A DNA stretch of 8,526 nucleotides from JBHIBR01 sp046759145 [NCBI: Nitrospinota bacterium] (GTDB taxonomy: Bacteria; UBA8248): the NCBI GenBank assembly GCA_046759145.1, contig JBHIBR010000056.1, positions 1-8,526 of the forward strand, read 5' to 3'. Below are positions 1,413 through 7,110 of the stretch, in pieces. Each line of letters starts with the position of its first letter. Position 1 is the first letter of the stretch. A program made the translations under genes and the position numbers. Under the pieces are notes generated by a model. That model saw only the letters and a program-made list of their open reading frames with translations, had not been told where the DNA came from and did not search any database.

Positions 1413-2198
1413 ATGGAGTATGAGGACATCCTTTTCGAGGTCAGGGACGGGGCGGCCTGGGTGACCATCAACCGCCCCGAGAAGCTCAACGCCTTCCGCC
1501 AGAAGACGCTCTACGAGCTCATCGACGCCTTCGAGCGGGTGGACGCCGACCCGGCCGTCGGCGTGGCCGTCCTCCGGGGCGCGGGCGAGCGGGCCTTCAG
1601 CTCGGGCGGCGAGATCCAGGCCATGCGGGACCTGGAATTCGCCACGGGCCACGTGTGGAACAACCTCATGATCCGCATCGCCCACACCATACGCAACTGC
1701 GGCAAACCGGCGATCGCCGCCGTGCGGGGCTGGTGCATGGGCGGGGGCAACGAGCTCCAGCTCTTCTGCGACCTGTGCATGGCCACAGAGGATGCCATCT
1801 TCGGCCAGACGGGCGCGCGGGTGGGGGCCTGCCCGGTGATGGGGGCCACCCAGTACCTCCCCCACCTCATCGGCCAGCGGAAGGCGCGGGAGATGATCTT
1901 CCTCTGCGAGCGCTACACGGCCCGCGAGGCGCTGGAGATGGGGCTCATCAACAAGGTGGTCCCCAACGACAAGCTGGAGGAGGAGGTGGAGAAGTGGTGC
2001 CGGCGCATCCTGAGCCTCTGCCCCCTCACCCTGCGCTACACCAAGACCTCCCTCAACTTCGAGGGCGATCAGCTCTACGCCTCTTGGCTCCACGGGAGCG
2101 AGCTCCTGAACGTCATCTGGAACAGCGAGCAGTGCAAGGAGGGGATGAACGCCTTCCTCGAGAAGCGCGAGCCGGACTTCAGCCGCTTCCTCCGCTAG
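1413..2198 (+). CDS. Enoyl-CoA hydratase/isomerase (crotonase) family protein, MenB/BadI-like tail
   Basis: This 261-residue protein has a full-length crotonase fold acting on a CoA thioester. The open frame extends upstream to 1245, but GGAGGAG (1399-1405) before the ATG at 1413 and the family-typical N-terminus set the start. Oxyanion-hole elements are SSGGEI (63-68) and CMGGGNE (108-114). Glu114 matches the first catalytic Glu of enoyl-CoA hydratase. The second Glu is replaced by Gly134 in FGQTGARVG, as in MenB, where this Gly holds a bicarbonate. The next loop (ACPVMGATQYL) is hydratase-like, with Pro141 where MenB and BadI have Asp. The C-terminus (GMNAFLEKREPDFSRF) matches the MenB/BadI tail. 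It therefore mixes subfamily signatures, and the exact reaction (hydration, ring cleavage or isomerisation) is not assignable. Nine cysteines is a high count. A DoxX gene follows 21 bases downstream. Confidence 0.92.
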   Translation: MEYEDILFEVRDGAAWVTINRPEKLNAFRQKTLYELIDAFERVDADPAVGVAVLRGAGERAFSSGGEIQAMRDLEFATGHVWNNLMIRIAHTIRNCGKPAIAAVRGWCMGGGNELQLFCDLCMATEDAIFGQTGARVGACPVMGATQYLPHLIGQRKAREMIFLCERYTAREALEMGLINKVVPNDKLEEEVEKWCRRILSLCPLTLRYTKTSLNFEGDQLYASWLHGSELLNVIWNSEQCKEGMNAFLEKREPDFSRFLR

Positions 2199-3461: not shown

Positions 3462-3830
3462 CTAGCCCAGGAAGATGCCGAAGACCCAGAGGCCGTACGC
3501 GAAAGACGCCAGGCCGAAGAGGACGAACAGGGGCGTCAGAGTCCGCCTGCCCCGCTCGCCGACGCCGAGGTCCACGCACGCCTTCCGGAGCCCATAGAGC
3601 CCGTGATAGATGGCCAGGGCGAGGGCGCCGATGTCGATGACCCGCAGCACCGGGTTCCTCACCAGGTCCTCGAACCGCAGGGGCCAGGCGATGAAGTAAT
3701 GCAGGTAGAGGAAGTGGGCTCCGAGGAAGAGGATGAGGAGCACGCCCGCGAACCGGTGGGCGTGCCAGGCCCAGTATTCCCGCAGCCGCAAGGTGTCGCT
3801 CAAGCGCGCCGGGCGAGCCTCCGCCGTCAT
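3462..3830 (-). CDS. SdhC/SdhD-like cytochrome b membrane anchor
   Basis: This 122-residue protein has three predicted membrane helices (about 26-47, 62-82 and 98-120). It belongs to the succinate dehydrogenase/fumarate reductase anchor superfamily. A histidine-rich first helix (WAWHAHRFAG, then His39 and His44) is followed by IYHGLYGLRKACVDLG (His76), which is the 'H..xG.R....D' motif near heme and quinone in these anchors. It would bring electrons between the iron-sulfur subunits and the quinone pool in the membrane. The ATG overlaps the stop of the upstream gene as ATGA (3827-3830), and an AAGGGGG tract precedes it. It is the last gene of the operon and ends 10 bases from the convergent repressor gene. 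Whether it or its partner holds heme ligands cannot be settled from sequence alone. Confidence 0.85.
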   Translation of the reverse strand: MTAEARPARLSDTLRLREYWAWHAHRFAGVLLILFLGAHFLYLHYFIAWPLRFEDLVRNPVLRVIDIGALALAIYHGLYGLRKACVDLGVGERGRRTLTPLFVLFGLASFAYGLWVFGIFLG

Positions 3831-4612
3831 CCCCCCACCCCCTTGGCCGCCGCCAGAAAGACCGGGGCGCTCGCAACCATGGCCACCACCGCGGCGGCCA
3901 CCGAGACCCAGAAGAGGACCTTCGTGTTCATCCGCCAGGGGCTGTCCACCAGGATGAGGCGCACCCCGTTGAGGGCGTGGAAGACGAAGATCCCCAGCAG
4001 GAGCAGGTCGCCCACGAGGAAAACCGGATGGGTGAAATAGGCCATCAGCCGGTTGAACTCTTCCTCCCCCGCCCGGGCGGTGCCCACAGCCCAGAGATGG
4101 ACGAAGAGGTAGATGGCCAGCAGCCAGCCCGTCACCCGGTGGAGCTGCCAGGCCCACATCCCCAGCTCCCACTGGGCGGGACTGCCCGCGCTGCCGGTGA
4201 GCCGCTCCCAGAAAGTCCTGGGGGGCTGCGCCCGCTCGGGCGCGTGCCAGGTTTCGGGGGGAGGCGGCGGGGCCACCGCCCCGGGGTAGATGCGGGTCGG
4301 GCCCGTCCCCCGGAGGGCGGCGATGGCCATGGAGCGGATGGGGATCTCGTGCGGGCAGGTCTCCTCGCAGCGGAAGCAGCTCACACAATCCAGCACCTTG
4401 GCCTGGGCCGCCTCCAGCAGCCGGTCGATGGGGTCCCGCTCGTCGAAGCCCTCCCGAGCCATGCGGACGAAGATCATGGGGCCGGCGTAGCCCTCCACCT
4501 TCCCGAAGGCGGGGCAGACGCCCTGGCAGAGCATGCACTCGGCGCATTCCTCCATCACCTTGATGGGCTCGACCCCCGCCGGCTTCATGCGGACGGGCGT
4601 GGGCTCACTCAT
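3827..4612 (-). CDS. Fusion of SdhB C-terminal/HdrC-like two-cluster ferredoxin domain with SdhC-like cytochrome b
   Basis: This 261-residue protein has two parts. Residues 1-105 form a ferredoxin domain with two complete CxxCxxCxxxCP motifs: Cys23, 26, 29, 33 and Cys76, 79, 82, 86. It corresponds to the C-terminal half of SdhB/FrdB or to HdrC/GlpC-type domains. A linker with five consecutive prolines (about 115-119) leads to a three-helix membrane anchor (about 154-177, 196-222, 231-256) with LHRVTG (His158), His172 and HALNGVRLILVD (His212), the SdhC-type heme/quinone signature. In ordinary complexes the clusters sit in SdhB and the anchor is a separate protein. The start overlaps the previous gene by 8 bases, but an own SD (4623-4629) supports separate initiation. 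The second motif has Cys79 where SdhB has Ile/Val, so two [4Fe-4S] clusters are predicted. It probably joins the neighbouring subunits to pass electrons to or from quinone. Confidence 0.88.
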   Translation of the reverse strand: MSEPTPVRMKPAGVEPIKVMEECAECMLCQGVCPAFGKVEGYAGPMIFVRMAREGFDERDPIDRLLEAAQAKVLDCVSCFRCEETCPHEIPIRSMAIAALRGTGPTRIYPGAVAPPPPPETWHAPERAQPPRTFWERLTGSAGSPAQWELGMWAWQLHRVTGWLLAIYLFVHLWAVGTARAGEEEFNRLMAYFTHPVFLVGDLLLLGIFVFHALNGVRLILVDSPWRMNTKVLFWVSVAAAVVAMVASAPVFLAAAKGVGG

Positions 4613-4997
4613 GGCCGCCGAGCTCCTCCGCGATGGGGCTCCGGAAGCCTCCCAGGCCCCAGAGCTTCTCGAGCTGCGGGCGGCTGTCGGTCACCAGGTC
4701 GCGGACCACGGGCAGTGCCGACATGGGCTCCACCGTTATCTCCTTTTCCTCCTCTTTCACCGAGCGCATGCAGAAGAGGCTGGGCTGGCCGTCCACCTCG
4801 ACGCAACAGGTGCCGCACTGGCGGGTGCGGCACTCGTAGCGGAAGGCCAGGCTCCCGTCGCAGTGCTCGTAGATGTACTCGAGGGCATCCCCCACCACCA
4901 TCCCCTCCTGGCGGGGGACCTCGAAGGTGTCGTACCGTGGCTCTCGGTCCCGGGTGGGGTCGAAACGGTAGACGCGCACGCGGAGCCTCTCGCTCAT
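4605..4997 (-). CDS. Stand-alone SdhB N-terminal-type [2Fe-2S] ferredoxin subunit
   Basis: This 130-residue protein matches only the N-terminal half of SdhB/FrdB. It begins with a ubiquitin-like ferredoxin fold (VRVYRFDPTRD) and carries the plant-type cluster motif Cys56-x4-Cys61-x2-Cys64-x11-Cys76 (CRTRQCGTC, then LFC). It continues through the segment after the cluster (VEPMSALPVVRDLVTD) and ends in the linker, before any [4Fe-4S] cysteines; standard SdhB is about 240 residues. The missing half is encoded by the next gene. The start lies 1 base after the flavoprotein stop (TGAGATG), with a GAGGG tract upstream. It should accept electrons from, or give them to, the FAD of the flavoprotein and hand them to the [4Fe-4S] clusters of the fusion protein. 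Confidence 0.9.
   Translation of the reverse strand: MSERLRVRVYRFDPTRDREPRYDTFEVPRQEGMVVGDALEYIYEHCDGSLAFRYECRTRQCGTCCVEVDGQPSLFCMRSVKEEEKEITVEPMSALPVVRDLVTDSRPQLEKLWGLGGFRSPIAEELGGHE
4623..4629 (-). promoter_or_regulatory. SD deciding the start of the iron-sulfur/cytochrome b fusion gene
   Basis: On the minus strand this reads GGAGGAG, 10 bases before the ATG at 4612, inside the last codons of the [2Fe-2S] gene. It shows that the second gene has its own initiation site. The split of SdhB is therefore probably real and not a sequencing frameshift inside one gene. Confidence 0.6.
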
Positions 4998-4998
4998 C

Positions 4999-6717
4999 TC
5001 ACACCCTCGCCACCTTGCGGGGGTCCACCTCGGTGAGCTCGACGGGCTTCTTGCTCAGGTGGATCTTGCCGTCCTTCAGCTCCACCAGGGTGTGACACAG
5101 CCACCCCTCGTCGTTCTGCGCGGGGAAGTCCGTGCGGTAGTGGTTGCCCCGGCTCTCCTCCCGGAAGAGGGCAGAGCGCACCACCACCTCGGCCAGATGC
5201 AGCATCATGGGCACCTCGTTGGCCTCCACCCACTCGTAGTTGTACGGGCGGGTGTCGCTGGTGACCATGAGGTCCCGCGCCTCGTCCTGGAGCTGGAGGA
5301 TGCCCTCCAGGCACCTCCTGAGGCCCTCCCCGCTGCGGGCCACGCAGCAGTGGTCCCACATGAGCTGCTGGAGGCGCCGCTTCAAGGGGCGGGGTCGCAC
5401 CCCCCGGTTCTTGCAGCGGAGCCGCTCCAGGCGCTCCAGCTCCTCCTCCACCACCCCGGGGGCGGGCTCGGGAGAGGGGCGCTCGCGCGCGGCTTCTGTC
5501 GCCTTCTCCCCCGCGCGCTTGCCGTAGACCTGGATCTCGATGAGGCTGTTGCCCCCCAGCCGGTTCGCCCCGTGGATGTTCCCCGACACCTCCCCGCAGG
5601 CGAACAGCCCCGGCACCCCGGTGCAGCACCACTCGTCGATCTCGATCCCGCCGCACATGTAAAGGGCCGAGGGGGCCGCCTCGAAGGGCTCCTTGTAGGT
5701 GGCTCTCTTGATGCCGTAGAAATCCCGCAGCAGCCTCCAGCGGTGGCGCAGCTTGTGCGGCTGGTAGAGGCCCTTGGCGGGGTCGCAGCGGGTGGTGTCG
5801 ACGTAAGCGCCCCCATGGGGCGAGCCCCGACCGGCCTGCACCTCGAGGTAGATCCCCCGGGCCGCTATGTCCCGGGTGGTGAACTCGAAGCGCTCCGGGT
5901 CGTAGCGCTCCATGAAACGCTCCCCCCGGGAGTTGTAGAAACGGACCTCGACGCCGTAGCTTCCCGCCTCGCCCAGGGTCATCCCCTCGATGAAGGAGGG
6001 ATAGAGGTAGGTGAGGGGGATGAACTGGAGGAACTCCATGTCCACCAGCTTCACCCCCAGGGGCATGGCCAGGGCGAAGCCGTCCCCGGAGGCGTTGCGG
6101 GTGTTGGCCGTCCGCTTCCACAGGCGGCCCACGGCCCCCGTGGCCAAGACCACCGACTTGGCCAGCGCCACCCGGCAGGCCCCCGAGACCACGTCAAAGC
6201 CCATCGCCCCGCAGCAGGCGCCCTCGCGGTCGGCCAACAGGCGCGTCACCATGAGCTGGTCGCTGATCCCCACCGCCCGGCGGTGAGCCTCATCGCGGAC
6301 GATGCGCATGAGCCGGTCGTTGCGGCCCACCTCCACCCCCCGGGGGACGGTGTAGCCGCCCAAGCGGCGCAAGTCGTAAGAGTTGGCGTCCGCCCGGTAG
6401 AAGGCCCCCCCGAAGCCCTCGAGGTCCAGGATGCGCTCCTTGGCCTCGCTCACCAGCACGCGCACGAGGGGCTGGTTGTTGAGGAAGTAGCCTCCCTTGA
6501 CGGTGTCCATGAAGTGGAGGTCTTCGCTGTCCTCGGGGGAGAAGGAGGCCTGGTGGATGCCCCCCGAGACGGCGGTCGAGCCCCCCGGTAAGGGGCTCTT
6601 GGACCACAGCAGGGTGCGGGCCCCCCGGCCGCTGGCCTCGACCGCAGCCCTAAGGCCCGCGTTGCCGCCCCCGATGACCAGCACGTCGCAGGCCGTCACC
6701 TCGGCTTCGAGCGGCAC
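4999..6717 (-). CDS. SdhA/FrdA-like FAD-dependent flavoprotein with altered active site
   Basis: This 572-residue protein has the length and order of SdhA/FrdA: Rossmann FAD motif DVLVIGGGNAG (11-21), DTVKGG (71-76), VVLATGAVGRL (189-199), RGERFMERY (264-272), TTRDIAARG (280-288), FACGEVSG..HGANRLGGNSL (372-392) and a C-terminal SRGNHYRTDFP..ND (522-536). Arg282 and Arg386 match catalytic/substrate arginines of E. coli SdhA (Arg286, Arg399). Three key residues differ. The flavin-linking His of 'SHTV' is absent (GGSTAVSGGI), the substrate His of QFHPTG is Ile233 (QFIPLT), and the His of HYMMGG is Leu352 (LYMCGG). FAD is therefore probably non-covalent and the substrate may not be succinate or fumarate. 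The start is GTG, 1 base after the lipoprotein stop, with GAGGGG (6725-6730) at 7 bases. It is the cytoplasmic-type catalytic subunit of the operon's complex. Confidence 0.9.
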   Translation of the reverse strand: MPLEAEVTACDVLVIGGGNAGLRAAVEASGRGARTLLWSKSPLPGGSTAVSGGIHQASFSPEDSEDLHFMDTVKGGYFLNNQPLVRVLVSEAKERILDLEGFGGAFYRADANSYDLRRLGGYTVPRGVEVGRNDRLMRIVRDEAHRRAVGISDQLMVTRLLADREGACCGAMGFDVVSGACRVALAKSVVLATGAVGRLWKRTANTRNASGDGFALAMPLGVKLVDMEFLQFIPLTYLYPSFIEGMTLGEAGSYGVEVRFYNSRGERFMERYDPERFEFTTRDIAARGIYLEVQAGRGSPHGGAYVDTTRCDPAKGLYQPHKLRHRWRLLRDFYGIKRATYKEPFEAAPSALYMCGGIEIDEWCCTGVPGLFACGEVSGNIHGANRLGGNSLIEIQVYGKRAGEKATEAARERPSPEPAPGVVEEELERLERLRCKNRGVRPRPLKRRLQQLMWDHCCVARSGEGLRRCLEGILQLQDEARDLMVTSDTRPYNYEWVEANEVPMMLHLAEVVVRSALFREESRGNHYRTDFPAQNDEGWLCHTLVELKDGKIHLSKKPVELTEVDPRKVARV

Positions 6718-6718
6718 A

Positions 6719-7066
6719 CTAGCGCCCCTCTTTTCCGGCCACCCGAGGCGGCGCGGCCTCTCGGGCCACGCCGCGGGGCTTCAGCTCCAGGAACACCCGT
6801 CCGCTCCTCTGGGTGAGGACGAACCGGACGGGCTCGTAGCCCTCTTTTTCCACGACTACGGTGAAGCTATCCACCACGAGCTCCCTCTCGCGCTCGCTGA
6901 AGACCCTCCGCGGGATCAGCAGGGGTGTGGTGCCCAACCTGTGCTCGCCCAGCCGGACCACAGCGCCCGGGGGCTTCGTCACCACCTCCACGCCCGGCGG
7001 GAGGAACTCCTCCATGCAGCCCCCGAGGAGAAGCAGGCCCAGCGCCCACCCTGCCGACCGCCTCAC
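6719..7066 (-). CDS. PEGA-domain lipoprotein
   Basis: This is a 115-residue protein from a GTG start. Its N-terminus MRRSAGWALGLLLLGGC is a compact lipoprotein signal with a lipobox (LGGC), so Cys17 would be lipidated; the next residue is Met, not Asp. The mature part (about 26-97) is a PEGA domain with PPGAVVRLGEHRLGTTPL, a central strand region and GYEPVRFVL, closing with VFLELKP. PEGA domains are small beta modules in surface or cell-envelope proteins, with no enzymatic role known. The start was chosen for the GGAGG (7077-7081) upstream and the fit of the signal peptide. ATG 7090 or GTG 7099 in the same frame are possible but have weaker SDs. It is the first gene of the operon, and its last codons hold the SD of the flavoprotein gene. 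Its role in the complex is unknown. Confidence 0.82.
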   Translation of the reverse strand: MRRSAGWALGLLLLGGCMEEFLPPGVEVVTKPPGAVVRLGEHRLGTTPLLIPRRVFSERERELVVDSFTVVVEKEGYEPVRFVLTQRSGRVFLELKPRGVAREAAPPRVAGKEGR

Positions 7067-7110
7067 CCCTGCTCTTCCTCCCCACAGCATCTCTTCCACG
7101 ACCCCCAGCC

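Follow-up and report, generated by a model that had tools for sequence, protein, structure and literature searches.

A complex II-type gene cluster with a divided SdhB and an SdhC-type anchor fused to the distal iron–sulfur domain, in a Nitrospinota bacterium

In one contig of a Nitrospinota bacterium, four tightly packed genes on the minus strand encode an SdhA-like flavoprotein, a [2Fe–2S] protein, a fusion protein and a second membrane anchor. The [2Fe–2S] protein corresponds to the N-terminal half of SdhB standing alone, whereas the C-terminal half of SdhB is fused to an SdhC-type anchor, an arrangement that we judge to be a novel variation on the complex II architecture. We put at roughly two in three the probability that the products of the four genes form a single quinone-linked oxidoreductase in the membrane, belonging to the complex II superfamily; its distal clusters would be tethered to the anchor, and its substrate would most likely be neither succinate nor fumarate. 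All findings are based on this contig, of which the whole stretch analysed (8,526 nucleotides) is referred to as the window.

The flavoprotein gene (positions 4999–6717, minus strand as for all features below; 572 residues, GTG start) matches FAD_binding_2 (E = 6.8e-61) and Succ_DH_flav_C (E = 5.4e-35). It is followed by the genes for the [2Fe–2S] protein (4605–4997; 130 residues; Fer2_3, E = 3e-30), the fusion (3827–4612; 261 residues), which carries Fer4_8 and Sdh_cyt in one open reading frame (ORF), and the second anchor (3462–3830; 122 residues), which is SdhD-like by its Sdh_cyt match (E = 3.5e-8) and by alignment with Escherichia coli SdhD. The domains follow one another in operon order, and neighbouring genes overlap or sit one base apart, the overlap between the fusion and second-anchor genes being ATGA. 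Directly upstream of the flavoprotein gene, a PEGA-domain lipoprotein-like gene (6719–7099; PEGA, E = 2.1e-5), with one base between its stop and the flavoprotein GTG, is probably the first gene of the operon. The window also contains an enoyl-CoA hydratase gene, for which scans of 76 and 386 genomes gave a match of 61% at best; the contig with this match also has a PEGA match (39% over 79 residues), too weak to point to a particular organism.

The initial annotation had proposed, for positions 3827–4997, that SdhB is split and its cluster domain fused to the anchor, and the ORFs at 4997–4605 and 4612–3827, their domains and their coherent frame agree with this. The Fer2_3 match spans residues 7–106 of the [2Fe–2S] protein, with cluster cysteines C56, C61, C64 and C76, and the ORF stops shortly past the domain; TIGR00384 is matched over profile positions 1–107 of 222 (97.7 bits, cut-off 88). 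The fusion-gene start and the [2Fe–2S]-gene stop lie within the 8-nucleotide overlap ATGAGTGA (4605–4612), and a Shine–Dalgarno-like GGAGGAG (4623–4629) is found 10 nucleotides ahead of the fusion-gene ATG. Codon usage places the frame switch 5 nucleotides past this ATG, which is the stop of the first gene, and frame 0 is best in 18 of 18 sub-windows of the fusion gene.

A sequencing or assembly frameshift within a continuous SdhB–SdhC fusion could give a similar picture: RDLVTD and the first cluster cysteine are 48 residues apart across both genes and 42 apart in SdhB and FrdB of E. coli, which means that the two genes together cover SdhB without a gap, and a single copy of the species was at hand for comparison. 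However, the stop, the ATG and GGAGGAG coincide, codon usage switches at the same place, and simulated frameshifts in nine window genes (the [2Fe–2S] and fusion genes included) reproduced the arrangement, defined as a stop within 12 nucleotides, an adjacent ATG and a 5-nucleotide Shine–Dalgarno sequence, at only 8 of 3614 placements (0.2%); an artefact is therefore unlikely. A similar overlap joins the third gene to the fourth, and the anchor fusion would stand even if a frameshift, to which we give a slim chance, had occurred. Gene decay is countered by the intact frames and by codon use resembling that of the rest of the window.

The state of SdhB elsewhere was assessed in the best 80 of 158 relatives (184 stretches) from a scan of genome_contigs with the flavoprotein motif FACGEV[ST]G, which reaches only relatives keeping the motif and misses those with another residue there. 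An ORF matching the [2Fe–2S] protein is present in 54 of these 80 loci; both SdhB halves are on one ORF in 52 of the 54, and the [2Fe–2S] half stands alone in the other 2. A continuous SdhB, which the initial annotation had named as a sign of a frameshift if seen in relatives, is thus the usual state among these distant ones; the searches found no close relative.

The fusion protein consists of a two-cluster ferredoxin-like domain (residues 11–101; 4310–4582), recognized by its cysteine motifs and its match to the C-terminal half of SdhB, a linker of about 43 residues with a PPPPP stretch (residues 102–144; 4181–4309), delimited in the predicted structure, and a three-helix SdhC-type membrane domain (residues 145–258; 3839–4180), recognized by Sdh_cyt, its helices and alignment with E. 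coli SdhC. The first cluster motif, CAECMLCQGVCP, contains C23, C26, C29 and C33, and the second, CVSCFRCEETCP, contains C76, C79, C82 and C86. Fer4_8 is matched with E = 3.7e-8 (34.2 bits, cut-off 27), Sdh_cyt (PF01127) with E = 1.3e-18 over residues 147–243, and TIGR02970 with 70.7 bits (cut-off 52.3). In the predicted structure, whose confidence is intermediate (mean pLDDT 69.3, pTM 0.39), residues 1–118 resemble residues 120–240 of 7d6v_B, the C-terminal half of an SdhB (Z 10.6, rmsd 3.6, 111 residues aligned), and the membrane part forms helices 145–179, 196–221 and 227–258. The match of the anchor part to SdhC (2wdq_C) is weak (Z 4.9, rmsd 5.5, 83 aligned), and its identity as SdhC rests on Pfam and NCBIfam. 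That the distal clusters are attached to the anchor, as had been suggested, is borne out by Pfam, NCBIfam, the reading frame and the structural match, which place two iron–sulfur clusters in covalent linkage with an SdhC-type anchor.

Since the second motif carries four cysteines, its cluster is expected to be [4Fe–4S], not [3Fe–4S]; in alignment, the fourth cysteine sits at a valine position of FrdB. The residue mutated in a conversion of [3Fe–4S] to [4Fe–4S] is reportedly Val207. Such a conversion through mutagenesis is cited among the references of PMC10238741.

The tether had also been proposed to fix the distance from [4Fe–4S] to quinone, and here the model does not support the proposal. 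Linker residues 105–129 have pLDDT values below 50 and are predicted to be disordered, so that the linker, largely disordered as modelled, would tether the domains but hardly fix any distance; this would need docking with the separate [2Fe–2S] protein and the flavoprotein, through which distances would be set as in ordinary complexes. The tether would be only partial if translation could also begin within the fusion gene, at Met152, and yield the SdhC-type domain on its own; a GGGAG stretch lies shortly ahead of this ATG. However, W148 and G151, common to other SdhC proteins, precede Met152, so that the shorter product would lose part of the domain, and the only other in-frame start listed for residues 101–153, a GTG at 113, has no clear ribosome site; we regard separate synthesis as very unlikely.

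PF01127 matches both anchors, and His212 of the fusion and His76 of the SdhD-like anchor align with the heme-ligand histidines of E. coli SdhC and SdhD. The positions of SdhC Ser27 and SdhD Tyr83, residues around the quinone site, are occupied by Gln and Leu, and because these residues differ from those of E. coli, quinone binding by the window anchors is not secured. In the proposed complex, electrons would enter at the FAD of the flavoprotein and pass to the [2Fe–2S] cluster of the stand-alone protein, then through the two [4Fe–4S] clusters in the N-terminal domain of the fusion, and finally to a heme b/quinone site at the interface of the SdhD-like anchor with the SdhC-type domain of the fusion. 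The flexible linker, by covalently tying the SdhB C-terminal clusters to the anchor, would guarantee one iron–sulfur domain per anchor and hold that domain at the membrane.

The flavoprotein model (pLDDT 88.7) has E. coli FrdA (1kf6_A) as its best fold match (Z 54.4, rmsd 2.1, 543 aligned). By alignment, and in E. coli SdhA numbering, substrate-binding His242 (FrdA His232) is replaced by Ile233 (6019–6021), where QFHPTG has become QFIPLT, and substrate-binding His354 (FrdA His355) by Leu352 (5662–5664); the position of the substrate-site threonine likewise holds a different residue. The proton-donor arginine (Arg286) is retained as Arg282 (5872–5874) and the carboxylate-binding arginine (Arg399) as Arg386 (5560–5562). 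FAD-linking His45 is absent, the aligned residue being Gly or Ser, depending on the alignment. The substrate site of FrdA comprises His232, His355, Arg390 and Arg287, according to PMC10238741. As both dicarboxylate-gripping histidines and the covalent-FAD histidine have been lost, the flavoprotein is probably not a succinate or fumarate enzyme and would act on another compound, perhaps a more hydrophobic one. In urocanate reductase, a change at the His232 position by itself accompanies a different substrate, as described in PMC7921117.

The protein might instead belong to an ordinary, if rearranged, fumarate reductase or succinate dehydrogenase, with binding of the same substrate rebuilt by other residues; the whole fold, both arginines, Succ_DH_flav_C and all iron–sulfur and heme motifs are present. 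Loss of the FAD-linking histidine by itself means little, as it is found in just 8 of the 80 aligned loci (the best 80 of 158 relatives, counting as gaps L047, L062 and L064, which have no residue at this site). Absence of His242 from 15 of the same 80 aligned distant relatives shows that this residue, too, varies across the superfamily. By contrast, His354 is kept in all 80 of the best 80 of 158 genome_contigs relatives, as well as in all 13 additional loci examined, and the window flavoprotein has changed both histidines together with the threonine position; we therefore consider an ordinary enzyme unlikely. Of the rearranged quinone-linked complex initially envisaged, membership of the complex II superfamily stands, and a succinate:quinone or fumarate reductase role has become doubtful, the counterparts of His242, His354 and His45 being missing. 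Weighing against the proposed reading, the flavoprotein sits by itself on a long branch of the tree (1.87), which no starred set encloses. More tentatively, and at a little less than even odds, the cluster may represent a so far undescribed oxidoreductase built from complex II parts, with a split SdhB, anchor-fused distal clusters, an active site not made for C4-dicarboxylates and a superfamily lineage of its own.

Compared with complex II (E. coli SdhCDAB and FrdABCD; Mycobacterium smegmatis Sdh1, class F, and Sdh2, class A), the window proteins share the flavoprotein fold, both SdhB halves and Sdh_cyt anchors with heme-ligand histidines, and in the PDB the flavoprotein and the [2Fe–2S] protein have M. 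smegmatis Sdh1 as their best sequence match, whereas the fusion has subunit C of Sdh2. In complex II, however, [2Fe–2S], [4Fe–4S] and [3Fe–4S] clusters are carried on one SdhB, whereas SdhB of the window is two chains, with the C-terminal half fused to SdhC and a second motif of four cysteines, and its flavoprotein keeps both arginines without the substrate and FAD-linking histidines. A resemblance to TfrAB, the thiol:fumarate reductase of methanogens, shows in NF004900, which at 443.6 bits (cut-off 718) is what the flavoprotein matches best in NCBIfam, and in NF004898, the second-best for the fusion, although only positions 3–106 ([2Fe–2S] protein) and 122–215 (fusion) of the 488 in NF004898 are matched. 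TfrB is one chain with a C-terminal HdrB-like CCG domain; no CCG domain was matched in the four window proteins by Pfam at E up to 0.01, and the anchors are instead of cytochrome b type. The nearest archaeal flavoproteins found likewise lack the FAD-linking histidine, whereas the archaeal relatives L001–L003, unlike the window flavoprotein, keep the substrate histidines.

Within the searches made, the claim that the domain order is undescribed holds for the fusion, which none of them returned, but not for its elements. A split of SdhB is known in Euglenozoa (PMC2663770), and a ferredoxin–cytochrome b combination occurs in QmoC. In Euglenozoa, SdhB is divided into SdhB-n and SdhB-c between the [2Fe–2S] and two-cluster domains with the cluster cysteines kept, and both halves are mitochondrial proteins encoded by nuclear genes, on separate chromosomes in trypanosomatids (PMC2663770; PMC3155505). 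SdhB-n has extensions, and the accessible part of the 2009 paper describes no membrane-anchor fusion; its authors did not find such a split outside Euglenozoa (PMC2663770). The window SdhB is also divided between its domains with cluster ligands kept, but its C-terminal half is anchor-fused and the genes are adjacent and overlapping. An archaeal fusion and fission survey records for complex II, in its accessible text, only an SdhA fission, regarded as an artefact of assembly (PMC11237513). The likeness to QmoC concerns only the general layout, an N-terminal ferredoxin-like domain for two [4Fe–4S] clusters that is linked to a membrane-embedded cytochrome b. In the window, Sdh_cyt and an SdhA-like partner take the place of an HdrE/NarI-type membrane part and HdrA-like partners; Pfam matched no membrane-domain family other than Sdh_cyt in the window proteins. 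The membrane part of QmoC is also of NarI type. In PMC10504309, QmoC is described as combining an HdrC part with a membrane module that carries heme and recurs in HdrE; the accessible text of PMC2702500 gives no account of this layout. In a Pseudomonas locus (L066), as in the window, an SdhA-like flavoprotein (FAD_binding_2) neighbours a separate [2Fe–2S] protein of 128 residues (Fer2_3) that resembles the N-terminal half of SdhB, but this locus has no match to the fusion or the SdhD-like protein, and His354 is kept.

Searches with the fusion protein returned no second example. Among the matches listed from 638 genome scans, repeats included (sets of 13 and 198 genomes at E 1e-3; 386, 8, 3, 7 and 5 at 1e-22 to 1e-25; 18 at 1e-14), none combined the cluster motif with the anchor, at thresholds that a very diverged fusion could escape. 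Matches in two loci begin before the anchor (L095, query residues 90–238; L081, 110–252), with no in-frame cluster motif ahead of SdhC. In genome_contigs, 34 stretches matched the fusion pattern and none was a relative; in viral_contigs, one stretch matched and was no relative; and the plasmid search gave matches to one half only (3 records). The nearest flavoprotein among the best 80 of 158 relatives is 42% identical, the nearest ones being archaeal, and flavoprotein searches of 382 genomes at E 1e-105 (one match listed) and 386 at 1e-100 (four listed) gave 38% identity for all five. Because close relatives were out of reach, these empty searches say little about rarity. No SdhB–SdhC fusion appeared among the papers listed in searches of the open-licence PMC literature, which leaves most subscription papers outside and does not prove absence.

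If real, the arrangement would provide, as far as the searches show, a split SdhB observed for the first time in a bacterium and a first instance of an SdhB C-terminal half fused to SdhC. As a natural experiment, it would bear on two questions: whether the first two clusters of complex II have to be covalently linked, and whether tying the last clusters covalently to the anchor alters electron transfer. The SdhA superfamily would also gain a membrane-bound, quinone-linked member with another substrate, comparable to urocanate reductase among its soluble members.

Four consecutive genes on the reverse strand of the window, with overlaps or a one-base gap at their junctions, encode a 572-residue SdhA-like flavoprotein (6717–4999; FAD_binding_2, E=6.8e-61; Succ_DH_flav_C, E=5.4e-35), a 130-residue protein (4997–4605), a 261-residue fusion protein (4612–3827) and a 122-residue second Sdh_cyt anchor (3830–3462; E=3.5e-8, below the TIGR02970 cut-off). 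The 130-residue protein is the SdhB [2Fe-2S] domain alone (Fer2_3, E=3e-30; TIGR00384 positions 1–107 of 222). In the fusion, an N-terminal part with two CxxCxxCxxxCP motifs (Fer4_8, E=3.7e-8) is joined by a linker containing five prolines to a C-terminal SdhC-type anchor (Sdh_cyt, E=1.3e-18; above the TIGR02970 cut-off). Domain matches and open reading frame (ORF) positions thus confirm the initial annotation, which had described a split SdhB with its cluster half fused to an anchor at positions 3827–4997.

A single base separates the flavoprotein gene from the end of a small upstream gene for a PEGA-domain lipoprotein-like product (7099–6719, reverse strand), which probably belongs to the same operon. 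This product has a lipobox-like LLGGC motif, and the one-base spacing suggests that the complex and an exported lipoprotein may be expressed together. Past the second-anchor gene, the opposite strand encodes an XRE/S24 regulator, DoxX, an enoyl-CoA hydratase and an HD-domain protein. The enoyl-CoA hydratase/isomerase (1413–2198, forward strand) has its best match, at 61%, in another genome (G484, L112:3249–4010). A match to PEGA (39% over 79 residues) lies near it in that genome and, as in the window, is encoded on the other strand, which hints weakly at a common neighbourhood.

The boundary between the SdhB halves argues for a genuine gene junction rather than a frameshift error. The stop of the [2Fe-2S] gene overlaps the start of the fusion gene in ATGAGTGA, with GGAGGAG located 10 nt upstream of the fusion ATG, and the fusion and second-anchor genes overlap in like style (ATGA). 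Codon usage, trained on six other window genes, placed the frame change 5 nt past the fusion ATG, at the [2Fe-2S] gene stop; changes at least 10 nt upstream of the ATG were penalised by over 4 log units, and those at +14 and +17 nt by 4.3 and 3.9 log units, respectively, the downstream fall-off being less even. As a control, 3614 combinations of frameshift position and shift were simulated across nine window genes, including the [2Fe-2S] and fusion genes; these created a stop within 12 nt in 154 cases, a stop with a nearby ATG start in 64, and a stop, an ATG and a 5-nt Shine–Dalgarno sequence in 8 (0.2%). The annotated frame was the best in 18 of 18 windows along the fusion gene, linker included. 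No part of SdhB is missing at the split: the stretch from RDLVTD to the first cluster cysteine, read across both genes, spans 48 residues, compared with 42 for SdhB and FrdB of E. coli. The codon-usage switch at the stop, the rarity of such a junction among simulated frameshifts and the consistent frame of the fusion gene support the annotated arrangement, which we take as real from this one sequence and which only a second could prove.

The cluster ligands are preserved in both halves: C56, C61, C64 and C76 in the [2Fe-2S] protein, and C23/C26/C29/C33 and C76/C79/C82/C86 in the fusion. The second motif of E. coli FrdB, CTFVGYCSEVCP, has a valine in place of C79, a position that in FrdB decides between a [3Fe-4S] and a [4Fe-4S] cluster; a study cited in PMC10238741 reportedly achieved such a conversion by mutagenesis. 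With C79 at this position, the fusion would be expected to carry two [4Fe-4S] clusters. The heme-ligand histidines of SdhC and SdhD in E. coli have aligned counterparts in His212 of the fusion and His76 of the SdhD-like protein, and at the quinone site the SdhC arginine is kept and the SdhC serine and SdhD tyrosine are changed in the alignment.

The AlphaFold model of the fusion (mean pLDDT 69.3, pTM 0.39) was built from 38 sequences; because the other 37 are SdhB-like fragments reaching no further than residue 138, the anchor was folded without relatives. The model comprises a ferredoxin-like domain with helices between residues 11 and 101, a linker whose residues 105–129 have pLDDT below 50, and three long helices (residues 145–179, 196–221 and 227–258). 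A structure search matched its N-terminal part to the C-terminal half of SdhB chains (residues 120–240 of 7d6v_B, Z 10.6, rmsd 3.6, 111 aligned; residues 123–238 of 1nek_B, Z 9.5, rmsd 3.0, 107 aligned). For the flavoprotein, 34 sequences gave a good model (pLDDT 88.7, pTM 0.92), whose nearest structural match is FrdA of E. coli (1kf6_A; Z 54.4, rmsd 2.1, 543 aligned).

The flavoprotein was aligned with E. coli SdhA, FrdA and NadB and the best 80 of 158 related loci (E. coli SdhA numbering). It has Ile at His242 and Leu at His354 and lacks the FAD-linking His45, but keeps Arg286 and Arg399. Among these 80 loci, His354 and Arg399 occur in all 80, Arg286 in 72 (Lys in 8), His242 in 65 (absent from 15) and His45 in 8. 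Lack of His45 is therefore common among them, and the window flavoprotein is the only one observed without His354. His242 and His354 are both present in 13 of 13 further loci in a second alignment, and the result for the window flavoprotein was the same there and in pairwise alignments to solved structures. The equivalent FrdA residues His232 and His355, together with Arg390, are described as substrate-binding, with Arg287 as the proton donor, and covalent FAD attachment as raising the flavin potential and being needed for succinate oxidation (PMC10238741). In urocanate reductase, as described in PMC7921117, tyrosine replaces the first of these histidines and the second is retained; the window flavoprotein lacks both. 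With moderate confidence, its substrate would be other than succinate or fumarate; confidence is only moderate, since the role of the lost histidines could have passed to other residues.

No protein found exceeds 42% identity to the flavoprotein, which forms a single long branch of the tree with no starred set enclosing it. Of the best 80 of 158 loci, 54 carry an ORF that matches the [2Fe-2S] protein, and in 52 of these 54 it also matches the Fe–S half of the fusion, so SdhB is continuous there. The nearest flavoproteins, archaeal (L002 and L003, 41–42% identity), showed no SdhB-like ORF within the flanks examined; the L002 genome has matches to the Fe–S half on other contigs. In the remaining two of the 54, both from Pseudomonas, the [2Fe-2S] protein stands alone: in L066 (5680–7924; Pseudomonas sp. 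7P_10.2_Bac1), as in L065, an SdhA-like flavoprotein is directly followed by a 128-residue Fer2_3 protein, adjoining genes that resemble, by eye only, substrate-binding proteins of sulfonate-type transporters. The SdhB N-terminal half apparently works there without a two-cluster half. On Methylobacterium nodulans plasmid pMNOD01 (L118), a complex II-like cluster (iron–sulfur protein, two anchors and FAD-binding protein) adjoins two fumarate hydratase genes and an amidohydrolase gene; its flavoprotein and a similar one on Cupriavidus necator pBB1 (L119) lack the FAD-linking histidine and keep the substrate histidines. The SdhC half of the fusion has its nearest counterparts in ordinary SdhC proteins encoded beside SdhD and SdhA (45% in genomes G567 and G302). 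No fusion match extended into the anchor in the best 80 of 158 loci, and whole-genome searches with the fusion protein did not find it among the genomes searched, an absence that weighs little.

The SdhB split is known from Euglenozoa mitochondria (PMC2663770; PMC3155505), and in QmoC an HdrC part is joined to a heme-bearing membrane module (PMC10504309); the window shares the first feature with the former and the Fe–S–membrane joint with the latter. The combination on this single contig, an Sdh_cyt-anchor fusion with an adjacent stand-alone SdhB N-terminal half and a flavoprotein lacking the substrate histidines, was not found elsewhere in the genomes or literature searched. The layout is like that of complex II, but assignment as SQR or QFR was rejected because its defining features, a one-chain SdhB and the dicarboxylate histidines, are missing.

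On the simplest reading, the four proteins would form one quinone-linked complex with the usual cofactor order, in which the covalent joint between clusters 1 and 2 is cut and a new one links clusters 2 and 3 to the anchor. Such a fusion is topologically easy, because the E. coli SdhB C terminus and SdhC N terminus both lie on the cytoplasmic side. The initial interpretation is partly supported: the analysis bears out a rearranged complex II relative with distal clusters joined to the anchor, but does not support the proposal that the tether fixes the [4Fe-4S]-to-quinone distance, because the linker is predicted to be largely disordered. The model instead suggests that the tether would secure stoichiometry and membrane attachment.
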